Shown here piece by piece: positions 1,443 through 11,786 of a stretch of DNA of 22,210 nucleotides (positions within the stretch are counted from its first letter, which is position 1; each line of letters starts with the position of its first letter). The position numbers and the translations under genes were made by a program. The DNA is taken from IMG/VR virus record IMGVR_UViG_3300041409_000169, positions 1-22,210 of that record; one strand, 5' to 3'. This DNA comes from a virus. The notes below the pieces were generated by a model. It was not told the DNA's origin, made no database searches, and worked only from the letters and a program-made list of their open reading frames with translations.

Positions 1443-1493
1443 CTTATACGCGTTAAACGTACGTTGCAACTAAAATCGTACGCTGAAAACGTA
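1443..1493 (-). promoter_or_regulatory. Leftward early promoter with two 15-bp repressor operators
   Basis: Two dyads fit TACGC-N5-ACGTA: 1447-1461 (spacer GTTAA) and 1479-1493 (spacer TGAAA), with centres 32 bp apart. On the minus strand the first dyad ends GCGTA and runs into TATAAG (1448-1443), a good -10 box. The -35 is poor: TTGCAA at 1469-1464 leaves only a 15-nt spacer. Transcription would begin near 1436 and feed the 1406-to-left operon. The dyads match those in the cI-cro intergenic region, so the same repressor probably controls both promoters. Confidence 0.72.
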
Positions 1494-1504
1494 AAACGTA
1501 CGCA

Positions 1505-1533
1505 AACAAAAAGCCCGCCGGTTAGGGCGGGCT
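1505..1533 (-). terminator. Intrinsic terminator of the cI operon
   Basis: On the minus strand an 8-bp GC-rich stem (arms 1533-1526 and 1519-1512, AGCCCGCC/GGCGGGCT) with a 6-nt loop is followed by a short U tract (1512-1508). It lies 28 bp after the stop of the last gene of the cI operon and just before the leftward early promoter. It would therefore separate lysogenic from early transcription. Confidence 0.85.
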
Positions 1534-1560
1534 AGGGGCTTGAAGAAAACGTTGGCCGCG

Positions 1561-1860
1561 CTAGGCTGGTGGTACTGGCAAGAAGCGAACAATCAGAGCG
1601 ACGAGCCCCACGAGAGTACCGCAGATCACAAAAAGACCAGGATAGCCTGGAAGGCGATGGATTTCGCCCTCCATGCGCGCCACTTTCTCGATGAGGGTGT
1701 CGATCTTCCCCTCCAGCCGGTCGGCTCTGCTTTCAAGTGACTTAACACGTGCTTCCATGTCGTCAAATGTGCCACCACCACCCCCGGATTTCAAGGGCTC
1801 CCCTTTATCGGAGTTGGTTATGAAGGTAGTGCCGTCAGAGATATTGAAAACATTGCTCAT
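1561..1860 (-). CDS. Coiled-coil protein with C-terminal membrane anchor (lysogenic operon)
   Basis: A 99-residue protein. ATG 1860 makes an ATGA overlap with the upstream stop and is preferred to the frame extension to 1878. Residues ~1-30 are polar and end in a GGGGG linker. Residues ~33-70 form heptads rich in E/R/K/L (MEARVKSLESRADRLEGKID and on). Residues ~78-94 are one hydrophobic span (FVICGTLVGLVALIV), followed by a Pro-rich tail. The plan resembles XhlA-type phage proteins (coiled coil plus one TM), which assist lysis. Its place as the last gene of the repressor operon argues instead for a function in the lysogen, such as superinfection exclusion. Both are inferences. Confidence 0.75.
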   Translation of the reverse strand: MSNVFNISDGTTFITNSDKGEPLKSGGGGGTFDDMEARVKSLESRADRLEGKIDTLIEKVARMEGEIHRLPGYPGLFVICGTLVGLVALIVRFLPVPPA

Positions 1861-2138
1861 GGATTTGCCCGTAACCACCGAGCGATATGGTCTCTTTTGA
1901 AGAGCCTCTCACTCCCACAATTGTCGCACTCTACTGACATGACTTCCAGTGCGTGTAGGTTTGCCAAGTCCACGCTTTTCATCTCAATGTCCAGCACCAC
2001 GAGGGATCTACCTGGCGTCGTAGTCACAAGTGTGAAATCGATCATGGAGCATATGGGGCATCGCATGTTTAGGTTCTTGCCGAGCGCAAAACGCATGAAC
2101 GCCTTTGCGTCGATGTGCAGAGATTGGTTTTCGTCCAT
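1857..2138 (-). CDS. Zinc-ribbon protein in the repressor operon
   Basis: A 93-residue protein with two CxxC knuckles: MRCPIC near residues 25-30 and VECDNC near 69-74, followed by a basic C-terminus (SERLFKRDHIARWLRANP). The 40-residue spacing fits a single zinc ribbon that could contact nucleic acid or protein. The start is 2 nt after the previous stop (TAA-CG-ATG), and the end overlaps the next gene by 4 nt. It is co-transcribed with the repressor and so should be made in the lysogen. No specific family was recognised. Confidence 0.75.
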   Translation of the reverse strand: MDENQSLHIDAKAFMRFALGKNLNMRCPICSMIDFTLVTTTPGRSLVVLDIEMKSVDLANLHALEVMSVECDNCGSERLFKRDHIARWLRANP

Positions 2139-2140
2139 CG

Positions 2141-2323
2141 TTATTTGATTGTCCCCTCGGGCGCTTCCGCGCCGGCTGCTTTCAGCACCACGTCAACTTC
2201 GTCAAGATAGCTCTGCCACATCGGCTTGCCTTCAAACTTGCTATCCTCGGGTACGCCGTGAAACCGGCACAGCGCGCGGGCGGCCAGCTCACGGGCGGGC
2301 TTGGGTTTGCGAGCGGGTGTCAT
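2141..2323 (-). CDS. Small basic hypothetical protein downstream of cI
   Basis: A 60-residue protein starting MTPARKPKPARELAARALC, basic at the N-terminus and acidic and helical at the C-terminus (WQSYLDEVDVVLKAAGAEA). The ATG overlaps the repressor stop (ATGA), so its translation depends on cI translation. The FHGVPEDSKFEGKPMWQ segment resembles uncharacterised short phage proteins found next to repressors. Function is unknown. Confidence 0.7.
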   Translation of the reverse strand: MTPARKPKPARELAARALCRFHGVPEDSKFEGKPMWQSYLDEVDVVLKAAGAEAPEGTIK

Positions 2324-3141
2324 CCGACCAAGCCAAATTTACGGACCACCCGCCCAACGATCCTAATCTCTTCGACCGAAACGAGCTTTTCTTTGTGCCT
2401 CGCATTGTCCGAGATGATCGCCACCAGGGCAGCGCCATCGTCCACCGGATCACGCACCTCAAGACGCTTGACGATGATGCCGCCAAACGCATCGTTCAGT
2501 GCGTAGACGCCATCCGGCGATGGCCATCGGTGGCGCGTATCGATCGCCACAACCTCTCCCTCGATGAGGGTCGGGGTCATCGAGTCTCCTTGCACTAGGA
2601 TAAAGGTCACGTCTCCGGATTTGACACCGCCCATGGCCGCCAGAACGGCGCGAGGGATGACCCAGTAGTCAGAAATATTTTCGGCTGCGAATGTCATACC
2701 GTGCCTGCCCGGCACGCCGTCCGAAACGATAGTCAGCCCTCCGCCGCCCATGCCGCCGGTCACATCAACCTGCGGGCTTCCCCCTTCTGGCACCCCGCGA
2801 AGGCCGGTCTCAGTTCCGTGCGTCATCTGATCGTCGGGGATATCGTCCGGCGCGTCAGGGTCAAATGTTGTGAATGCCGCAGGCTGAAATTCCGGGCCAG
2901 CGAGCGCCCAAACTTCTTGCAGCGTGATTGGAGGCGTTCCTTTGCCGACCAGCGCCCGCGCCAAATCCGAAACGAGATCGCGCTTCAAGTAGCCTCCGCC
3001 GTAGAGCGCGGCGTCTTCATATCGCTGGAAGCTTGATGCCCCAGCGAATCCGCTCGCCTTGGCCAGCTTTGCTATCGACAGGTCGGCCCTCTCGCGAAGG
3101 GCTTTGACAGTTCGGGTGATGGTTTCAGCGGAGTTGTCCAT
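2320..3141 (-). CDS. CI-like phage repressor, HTH plus S24 peptidase-like domain
   Basis: A 273-residue repressor. The N-terminal ~60 residues are a helix-turn-helix domain (SIAKLAKASGFAGASSFQRY). A ~90-residue Pro/Asp/Gly-rich linker follows, then a LexA/CI-type C-terminal domain. The catalytic serine is in GDSM (Ser187) and the general base is in IVKRL (Lys225). The 38-residue spacing is normal for LexA-like domains. The linker lacks the usual Ala-Gly scissile bond about 35 residues before the serine. The only AG nearby in the protein tail of the HTH part is at 81-82. The start at 3141 has an AGGTGGAG Shine-Dalgarno; a GTG at 3150 in frame is less likely. It heads a four-gene lysogenic operon and should bind the dyads at 3152-3205 and 1447-1493. 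Confidence 0.93.
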   Translation of the reverse strand: MDNSAETITRTVKALRERADLSIAKLAKASGFAGASSFQRYEDAALYGGGYLKRDLVSDLARALVGKGTPPITLQEVWALAGPEFQPAAFTTFDPDAPDDIPDDQMTHGTETGLRGVPEGGSPQVDVTGGMGGGGLTIVSDGVPGRHGMTFAAENISDYWVIPRAVLAAMGGVKSGDVTFILVQGDSMTPTLIEGEVVAIDTRHRWPSPDGVYALNDAFGGIIVKRLEVRDPVDDGAALVAIISDNARHKEKLVSVEEIRIVGRVVRKFGLVG

Positions 3142-3151
3142 ACGCTCCACC

Positions 3152-3209
3152 TACGCACTTGGCGTATACGCTTTCCACGTTGACATGACGTACGGGGAAA
3201 ACGTATAAG
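3152..3209. promoter_or_regulatory. Immunity control region: three operators, rightward promoter, weak repressor promoter
   Basis: Three 15-bp dyads occur: 3152-3166 (TACGC-ACTTG-GCGTA, perfect), 3167-3181 (TACGC-TTTCC-ACGTT) and 3191-3205 (TACGG-GGAAA-ACGTA). The rightward promoter has a consensus -35 TTGACA (3180-3185) and TATAAG (3204-3209), spacer 18 (or GTATAA with 17). The last dyad overlaps its -10. Leftward, TATACG (3168-3163) can serve as the repressor promoter's -10, without a clear -35. The two left dyads cover it and would allow autorepression, while the third lies upstream of it, where a bound repressor could activate. Confidence 0.85.
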
Positions 3210-3214
3210 AGCGT

Positions 3215-3460
3215 ATGGACACCACGCTCTCCCAAATTACCCCAGCCGAGTTTGTTATCGCCAAGTTTGGTGGGCTGACCGCCACGGCCAAAGCCATCGG
3301 CAAGCCGATCACCACCGTTCAAGGCTGGAAGGAGCGAGGGCAGGTTCCCCAAGCGCACTGGCTGGAACTCATCGCCGCCGCGAAAGATACTGGCGAGACA
3401 ATCGATCTTGCCGACTTTCTGACGAGCCACCCATCCCCACAGATGGAGAGGGCGTCATGA
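3215..3460 (+). CDS. Cro-like DNA-binding protein, apparently leaderless
   Basis: An 81-residue protein diverging from the repressor. Residues ~9-60 (FVIAKFGGLTATAKAIGKPI, TVQGWKERGQVPQAHWLELI) form a helix-turn-helix of the Cro/YdaS/carph-isopro type, in which TTVQGWKERG is the recognition-helix region. The ATG is only six bases after the -10 TATAAG, so the transcript should begin at or very near the A of the start codon with no Shine-Dalgarno. Its stop overlaps the next ATG (ATGA). It likely represses cI by binding the shared operators. Its exact subfamily is uncertain. Confidence 0.88.
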   Translation: MDTTLSQITPAEFVIAKFGGLTATAKAIGKPITTVQGWKERGQVPQAHWLELIAAAKDTGETIDLADFLTSHPSPQMERAS

Positions 3461-9693: not shown

Positions 9694-10568
9694 GCCGCAT
9701 CCGTTCCGTGCATCCTGGCCTATGGACAGATGAGGCCTTTATGGGTCTCAGCGCCTTCGCGCGCCTCCTCTACATTGGCCTTTGGAATGAAGCCTTTGAC
9801 GACGGCGTATTCGAGTGGAAGCCGCTAACAATCAAGGCGCGCATCTTCCCGGTCGACAACGTCGATATCGCTGCCCTGCTGGCTGAATTGATCTCTGGCG
9901 ATTGCATCCGCGAGCGCGGTAAGTATGGGCTCATCCGCAACTTCCGGCATTACCAGCGGCCGAAAAAGCCGAACAGTTCCGGAATGCTCGAGGCAGCAGA
10001 CCACCAATACGTCGGTATAGTTCCGAACCATTCCCCCACCAGTACGGAAGAAGCCGAGCAGATGGAGGAGGGAGGAGGGAAGGGGAAGGATGTAGAAGAA
10101 GCCCCCTTGACCCCCGAGGGGGGCGACGAGGCGATTTTCAATGAATGCTGGCAGACGTTCCCCCACCATCCGGAGAGCGTGAGGTCACAGGCTCGAAAGC
10201 AATTCGATACGCTAAAGGCCGATGAGAAGCTCGAGCTACTCCCCAGCACGAAGCACTACCGGGCGTTCTGGGTCGAGGAATGCGTTCGACGCAAGGAGAC
10301 GCAGGAGGCCCGGCTTCAATACGTTCCGCATCTCGCCACGTGGATCAAGAACGGCGCCTGGCGTGAGGCCATGGCGCTTCCCGTCAAGGCTGCTGCGAGC
10401 GCCGCTGTGGCCGATGCGCTGGAATACGTCGACCGGTATGCCCAAGAGGATCTGTTCGCCCGTTGTGAGCGGCTGCGGGGCAAGGCGGCGCCAACCAGCA
10501 TCCAGCGTTATGGCTTCCCTCGGGAAATCGTAGCCGCCGCTCGAGCCGGAGAGGGCGTGGCAGCATGA
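9690..10568 (+). CDS. Phage replication initiator (lambda O/DnaD-like organiser)
   Basis: A 292-residue protein. The N-terminal ~100 residues (IRSVHPGLWTDEAFMGLS, ARLLYIGLWNEAFDDGVFEW, KPLTIKARIFPVDNVDI, IRNFRHYQRPKKPN) are the winged-helix start common to phage replication proteins. A low-complexity acidic/Gly linker (~115-145) follows, then a C-terminal helical domain (FNECWQTFPHHPES, LQYVPHLATWIKNGAWRE). By analogy to lambda O the N-terminus binds the origin and the C-terminus recruits the helicase. No helicase or loader gene is next to it, so the host's is probably used. The linker is encoded by a purine run that may be the origin. Confidence 0.85.
   Translation: MSRIRSVHPGLWTDEAFMGLSAFARLLYIGLWNEAFDDGVFEWKPLTIKARIFPVDNVDIAALLAELISGDCIRERGKYGLIRNFRHYQRPKKPNSSGMLEAADHQYVGIVPNHSPTSTEEAEQMEEGGGKGKDVEEAPLTPEGGDEAIFNECWQTFPHHPESVRSQARKQFDTLKADEKLELLPSTKHYRAFWVEECVRRKETQEARLQYVPHLATWIKNGAWREAMALPVKAAASAAVADALEYVDRYAQEDLFARCERLRGKAAPTSIQRYGFPREIVAAARAGEGVAA
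10064..10123. other. Purine tract and C5/G6 hairpin inside the replication gene, possible origin
   Basis: Bases 10064-10090 are 27 uninterrupted purines with short G runs. They are followed by two C runs and a G run: CCCCC (10102-10106), then CCCCC-GA-GGGGGG (10111-10123). Lambdoid phages place their origin inside the O gene at the linker, and this sits at the same place. No clear iterons were found, so origin function is only inferred. Confidence 0.4.
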
Positions 10569-11204: not shown

Positions 11205-11786
11205 ATGGCTTGGTACGTCATCCGAACGAATATCAAATGCGAGGACAAGGCGGAGCGGAACCTGCGTGATGCGGGATTTCGGACCTATGCGCCATGGCAG
11301 AAGTTCGAGCGGCTGAACCGTCGCAAGCGGGTGTTCATCCAGCACGAGATGCGCTTGGCGCCGCGCTACCTGTTCCTCGATACCGGTTTGCTGCCCCGCG
11401 ATCATACGCCATGGGGCGTCATCCGGGGCTGTGACGGTGTTGAACATGTTCTAGGCGTCAATGGCCTGCCGCTGGCTCTTGGGCCGCAGGACGTAGCCGC
11501 ACTGACCGCCATCATGGCGGCCGAACGCGACTTTGCCTTTGACGAAACGCGAGCAGGGAAGCTGCACCGCCGCGAGATCGGCAAGACCAAGAAGGAAACC
11601 ACCCGCATGCGGTTTCCGGTCGGCAGCAAGGTTAGGATCAATGATGGCCCGTTCGCCACCTTCGGCGGGGAAATCACCAACGTCAACGGTCGCGGCCACC
11701 TATTGGTCATGACCACGATATTCGGCCGGCTGACGCCTGTGGAATTGGAGGCAGGGCAGGTTGAGGCTATTGCATCCGCCGCGTGA
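11205..11786 (+). CDS. NusG/RfaH-like transcription antitermination protein
   Basis: A 193-residue protein. ATG 11205 follows AAGGG at 8 nt; the frame extends upstream only over non-coding linker. Residues ~1-110 are an NGN domain (MAWYVIRTNIKCEDKAERNL, RDAGFRTYAPWQKF, HEMRLAPRYLFLDT, VEHVLGVNG). After a charged linker (EIGKTKKETTR), a KOW domain begins near residue 137 (VGSKVRINDGPFATFGG, then LTPVELEAGQVEAI). NusG paralogues bind the RNA polymerase clamp and suppress pausing and termination. As the last gene before a hairpin-rich gap and the late genes, it is the best candidate for the late-gene activator, in the position of lambda Q. Confidence 0.92.
   Translation: MAWYVIRTNIKCEDKAERNLRDAGFRTYAPWQKFERLNRRKRVFIQHEMRLAPRYLFLDTGLLPRDHTPWGVIRGCDGVEHVLGVNGLPLALGPQDVAALTAIMAAERDFAFDETRAGKLHRREIGKTKKETTRMRFPVGSKVRINDGPFATFGGEITNVNGRGHLLVMTTIFGRLTPVELEAGQVEAIASAA

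Follow-up and report, generated by a model that had tools for sequence, protein, structure and literature searches.

Do the five copies of a 15-bp palindrome found at two distant promoters of this viral DNA represent the operators of a lambda-type switch, and if so, how do they share bases with the promoters that they would control? We addressed this question in the whole viral record of 22,210 bases (hereafter the window), which, judging by its gene content, is part of a temperate tailed phage, with an early region at the left and the terminase, head-tail connector, and major capsid protein at the right. As in a lambda-type switch, the early region harbors divergent cI and cro genes (Table 1), the former encoding a helix-turn-helix (HTH) domain followed by an S24 peptidase domain. 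The cI product matches PF00717 (2.2e-10) and phrog_4 (1.1e-19), and the ATG that we assign as its start is backed by aligned relatives. The Cro protein matches the NCBI carph-isopro family NF046037 (1.5e-18) with 66.7 bits, which is above the curated cut-off of 38, and the profile of this family in turn matches solved structures, including the Cro proteins 3bd1 and 1rzs. The profile of the CI N terminus found no match among solved structures, and full-length CI used as a query retrieved no relatives among viral or genome contigs. A conserved Ser36/Ser37/Gln39/Arg40 region of the CI N terminus may read TACG. Likewise, a DNA similarity search against named phages and a search of plasmids produced no match to the window, and a family profile search produced none for the 83-aa ORF that is first downstream of PL. 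Upstream of PL, a hairpin with a T run resembles an intrinsic terminator and would stop the leftward cI transcript just ahead of this promoter. At the left end of the record (positions 1-110), a 12-base unit (ACCTGAGCCCCG / ACCTGATCCCTG) is repeated ~10 times head to tail, in frame within a minus-strand ORF.

Table 1. Features of the switch region, in window coordinates
Feature	Position	Strand	Description
ORF, 83 aa	1155..1406	-	First downstream of PL
PL -10	1443..1448	-	TATAAG; first TA common with OL1
OL1 operator	1447..1461		TACGCGTTAAACGTA; matrix rank 1, 20.56 bits
Candidate PL -35	1464..1469	-	TTGCAA; 15-bp spacer; CTTGC-like motif kept in unfused PLs of relatives
OL2 operator	1479..1493		TACGCTGAAAACGTA; matrix rank 2; 32 bp from OL1
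Terminator-like hairpin	1512..1533	-	Resembles intrinsic type, with T run
cI repressor	2320..3141	-	273 aa; ATG at 3141; N-terminal HTH and S24 peptidase domain
Proposed cI (PRM) -10	3148..3153	-	TAGGTG; begins with terminal TA of OR3; 6 nt to ATG
OR3 operator	3152..3166		TACGCACTTGGCGTA; abuts OR2, 15 bp centre to centre
OR2 operator	3167..3181		TACGCTTTCCACGTT; right half is start of PR -35, core is proposed PRM -35
Proposed cI (PRM) -35	3172..3177	-	TGGAAA; within OR2; 18-bp spacer; -36 to -31 from cI AUG
PR -35	3180..3185	+	TTGACA; overlaps OR2; kept in relatives
OR1 operator	3191..3205		TACGGGGAAAACGTA; matrix rank 5
PR -10	3204..3209	+	TATAAG; first TA common with OR1
cro	3215..3460	+	81-aa HTH protein, carph-isopro domain family

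A sequence-only reading of this DNA had listed five copies of the pattern TACGC-N5-(A/G)CGTA, and all five are present. When up to one mismatch is allowed, no match to TACGC-N5-RCGTA falls outside the five sites anywhere in the record of 22,210 bases. To score them without circularity, we built a symmetric weight matrix from 94 distinct sites of relatives, leaving the window out of the training set. Over the 22 kb, this relatives-only matrix ranks the five sites 1-5, with scores of 20.56, 18.32, 16.24, 15.03, and 11.62 bits, and the numbers of hits expected in simulated sequence at the scores of the third, fourth, and fifth sites are 0, 0.02, and 0.12, respectively. The sequence-only reading had named coding matches as good as or better than the sites as what would refute it; the same matrix found none, the best other position being a coding one with 7.25 bits. 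The matrix reverses one detail of the sequence-only reading, which took 3167-3181 as the weakest copy: it is 3191-3205 that scores lowest, although OR2-type sites in the training set favor 3167-3181. The view that the repeats arose by chance or from base composition can draw on the count at up to two mismatches, which shows no enrichment across the window (33 matches vs. 23.7 expected). However, the top-scoring sites are all confined to two short intergenic stretches, and their architecture is conserved. The matrix ranking and this conservation led us to rule out chance repeats, whose probability we regard as negligible.

The one palindromic operator lies at both PL and PR and overlaps promoter elements there, again as in a lambda-type switch. 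At PR and at PL, the final TA of an operator is the first TA of the -10 hexamer TATAAG, just as the sequence-only reading had it, and in most of the PLs of relatives that we call unfused (see below) a TATA occupies the equal position after OL1. The claim that the two promoters have identical geometry holds for this operator/-10 overlap but fails at the -35: OR2 overlaps the PR -35 and lies 24 bp from OR1, whereas OL2 is located upstream of the likely PL -35 and 32 bp from OL1. Since the PR -35 begins within OR2, the right half of this operator reads CGTT instead of CGTA. Operator and promoter are here written in the same bases, which consequently sets the PR spacer at 16-18 bp, and the OR1-OR2 distance is 22-24 bp across the non-redundant PR units that have CI. 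The cro ATG starts six bases past the last base of the PR -10, so that a cro transcript from PR would be leaderless or nearly so. PL comes in two versions in relatives, either fused units like PR or unfused pairs, in which the two sites are ~29-33 bp apart and flank a CTTGC-like -35, and the window has the unfused version. Its 15-bp -35 spacer is short, which counts against our model. A generic sigma-70 scan called no promoter in the region because it demands a T at position 6 of the -10, and we therefore gave its result no weight.

We looked for this architecture elsewhere by three routes. In the first, which is operator-blind, viral loci were chosen by Cro alone (n = 14), and 13 of them have at least two sites in the 200 bp that precede cro. 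The second, likewise operator-blind, used the DNA-binding domain of CI alone to search class- and order-wide samples of 385 and 397 genomes, in which 15 and 13 genomes matched, respectively. In the 24 usable loci, the 200-bp stretches ahead of cI contain 21 sites, against 1.4 expected; nine of these 24 relatives are without recognizable sites, which counts against our model. The third route relied on the DNA pattern alone, using the composite TACG-N6-RCGTTGAC-N2..8-TACG-N7-CGTA, which is found in 89 viral and 46 genome stretches, as opposed to two viral stretches for a reversed-pattern control. Of the 120 composites that are non-redundant, 49 are adjoined on the left by this CI domain and another 16 are adjoined on the right by Cro, while 26 lie beyond cI in mirror-image orientation and thus correspond to PL. 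Moreover, in more than 20 contigs the entire operator/-35/operator/-10 unit is present at PR and again, as its mirror image, at PL. The architecture is mostly seen in Alphaproteobacteria, with hosts in genome records that include Rhizobium, Ensifer, Phyllobacterium, Bartonella, and Methylobacterium, as well as Kaistia, Aureimonas, Martelella, Rhodothalassium, and Phenylobacterium. Kaistia granuli DSM 23481 is one strain that has the unit. Because its relatives are alphaproteobacterial, the host of the window is most likely so too. A group of Clostridia also matches the composite, with a different single-domain regulator adjoining the site. These clostridial MAG loci (L109, L123, L125, L130, and similar ones) exhibit tandem TACGCG..CGCGTA sites around a TTGACA promoter, next to a 66-73 aa single-domain XRE protein (..CYAGYEQGYREPD..), and apparently form a separate autoregulated family with a similar half-site.

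The comparative evidence backs the view, put forward by the sequence-only reading, that one operator family serves both early promoters of a CI/Cro phage, with CI and Cro as the presumed ligands. From the sequence evidence, we consider it very probable that the five sites are OL1, OL2, and OR1-3 of a lambda-type switch in a temperate phage, bound by CI and probably by Cro. An alternative that we find unlikely is that only Cro, or only CI, binds the common site and that the other regulator uses a different sequence, in which case there would be no competition for one set of operators. Each half of this alternative has loci that speak for it. CI-domain loci that lack a recognizable carph-isopro Cro still have the site (L172-L176), so CI alone may suffice, and in Methylobacterium-type contigs the site accompanies a Cro match, with no match to this CI profile. 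Taken together, however, the two one-sided cases suggest that the site is retained with either protein on its own, which would be expected of an operator bound by both. In the Methylobacterium-type loci L016, L031, and L095, mirror-image PL and PR units carry the same operator, the OR2 is without the TTCC core described below, and the N terminus of CI is of a different type (..VSTYLGYENGDREPS.. in L016, for example). Elsewhere, the CI-domain relative L177 has TGACATATAATATGTCA in its promoter in place of TACG..CGTA, a possible natural change of specificity, and Paracoccus phage Psul1 (L153) has a Cro homolog and a similar promoter layout with GCGCA-N3-TGCGC sites.

The core of OR2 points to a further promoter. 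TTC is found at this core in 46/49 PR units vs. 1/26 PL units (Fisher 1.5e-15), and TTCC in 34/49 vs. 0/26. The TTC contrast persists when the PLs are restricted to CI-bearing contigs (1/12, 9.9e-9), and in the eight contigs that retain both units after dereplication, TTCC is in the PR unit of all eight and in the PL unit of none. We rejected the idea that the core is part of PR itself, given PL units that have the same -35 without it. On the opposite strand the core reads TGGAA(A), which we propose to be the -35 of the cI promoter. The cI AUG, picked in relatives from the protein alignment and thus independently of its distance to the core, is 34-37 nt from this proposed -35 in 42/49 loci (mode 36). 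This spacing is what would be expected between a -35 and a transcript that starts at the AUG, i.e., a leaderless cI message, and a Shine-Dalgarno-like motif (AGGA/GGAG/GAGG) precedes the cI AUG in only one of 42 loci. OR3 lies at exactly 15 bp from OR2 in 18/49 non-redundant PR units, and there are almost no sites at other offsets. In the window, the terminal TA of OR3 forms the first two bases of the proposed cI -10, and hence the operator/-10 contact would recur at three promoters: PR with OR1, PL with OL1, and the putative cI promoter with OR3. This third relation, at 3152-3166, was not mentioned in the sequence-only reading. A stretch of 13 bases, GAGCGTATGGACA, is common to the starts of cI (3135-3147) and cro (3209-3221), in opposite orientation; it is not kept in relatives, and we dropped it as a functional element.

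The TTTCC core of OR2 might not be a cI -35 but reflect a base preference of CI or Cro that ranks operator affinities, or serve as a host-factor site. TGGAAA is a mediocre -35, and relatives without OR3 show a -10 signal at the predicted spacing that exceeds those at neighboring spacings only slightly, both of which would suit such a reading. TAGGTG, too, matches the consensus weakly, and all three points count against our model of the cI promoter. Nevertheless, the alternative remains doubtful in our estimation, since OL2 lacks the core at the corresponding position in the eight matched pairs and since the core stands at a fixed distance from the cI AUG, as the -35 of a leaderless transcript must.

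If the core is indeed a cI -35, the hexamers of PR (TTGACA) and of the proposed cI promoter (TGGAAA) stand back to back on opposite strands, and OR2 lies on both. As the two -35s are only 2 bp apart, polymerase probably serves only one of these promoters at a time. CI and probably Cro would bind the 15-bp site TACGY-N5-RCGTA, most likely in competition for one operator. When bound to OR1/OR2 and OL1, CI would cover the -10 and -35 elements of PR and PL and shut both promoters, while occupancy of OR2 and OR3 would throttle cI itself. Because the centre of OR2 falls at -33 relative to the cI start, and its bases on the proposed cI -35, CI bound there would block, not activate, cI. This geometry argues against lambda-style self-activation by CI. 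The 1.7 kb that separate OL from OR would allow looping.

How does this compare with known systems? Like the window, lambda (NC_001416) has divergent cI and small HTH cro genes, with one palindromic operator clustered at PL and PR, and the OR1-OR2 centres are 24 bp apart in both (annotated spacing for lambda). The centre of OR3 is 18 bp from the cI AUG in the window and 19 bp in lambda. Lambda cI is expressed from PRM as a leaderless message, and the same is predicted for the cI of the window. The differences are several. The operator sequences are unrelated, in line with the sequence-only reading, which had not recognized this operator as lambda type. The OR2-OR3 centres are 15 bp apart in the window instead of 23, which puts the OR2 centre near -33, not -42, relative to the start of cI. 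Two OL sites were found as opposed to three in lambda, and the Cro of the window belongs to another subfamily than lambda Cro.

Rhizobial phages allow further comparisons. Sinorhizobium phage phi2LM21 (MF614627) has annotated CI and Cro homologs with OR3-OR2-OR1 beside them at 15- and 23-bp steps, an OL pair 30 bp apart, and a TTCCACGTTGACA core; it exhibits no difference of kind from the window, with a CI identity of about 34%. No operators are among the features annotated in the switch stretch of this record. Rhizobium phage 16-3 (DQ500118) is also alphaproteobacterial, has annotated OL and OR and back-to-back Pc and Pr, and resembles the window in that an operator overlaps the Pr -10 and the c start is directly downstream of the Pc -10. 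Unlike in the window, the operators of 16-3 are of the ACAA...TTGT type, its OR1 is located between the two -35s and not on them, and its C repressor scores E 0.012 against the CI N-terminal profile, which is not meaningful. As both operator type and repressor differ, we discarded the possibility that the window has a 16-3 C repressor system. In Sinorhizobium phage phiLM21 (NC_029046), Cro (gp20) matches the Cro profile (7.8e-14), but the repressor (gp19) is non-homologous and Cro has other recognition-helix residues. No TACG operator cluster was found in phiLM21, differences that are consistent with sites following regulators. This phage (L190) has candidate TAGCG-N5-CGCTA sites in a PL-like region (9912-9961) and in the cI-cro intergenic region (11249-11263).

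We found no description of the 15-bp operator in the open-access literature, although an older subscription paper could have one; searches with the letters of the motif returned unrelated papers only, and carph-isopro returned none. A 2025 survey reported that phiLM21-like Sinorhizobium prophages have operators other than those of lambda and 16-3 and left their nature open (PMC12429752).

The temperate phages and prophages of Rhizobium, Ensifer, Bartonella, Methylobacterium, and their relatives form a large group that has received little study, for which these findings provide an operator code open to testing. The operator could be used to forecast immunity groups and to identify which prophages keep an intact switch. 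On the sequence evidence, we give even chances to the broader idea that alphaproteobacteria harbor a widespread variant of the lambda switch, in which OR2 sits on both -35s, cI is leaderless, and CI represses both promoters. Should this be so, stable lysogeny would be held by another logic, such as a low CI level set by autorepression, contacts between OL and OR, or competition of the promoters. The geometry suggests a lambda-like switch that operates without lambda-style positive autoregulation, which bears on the question of which features of lambda are needed for bistability.
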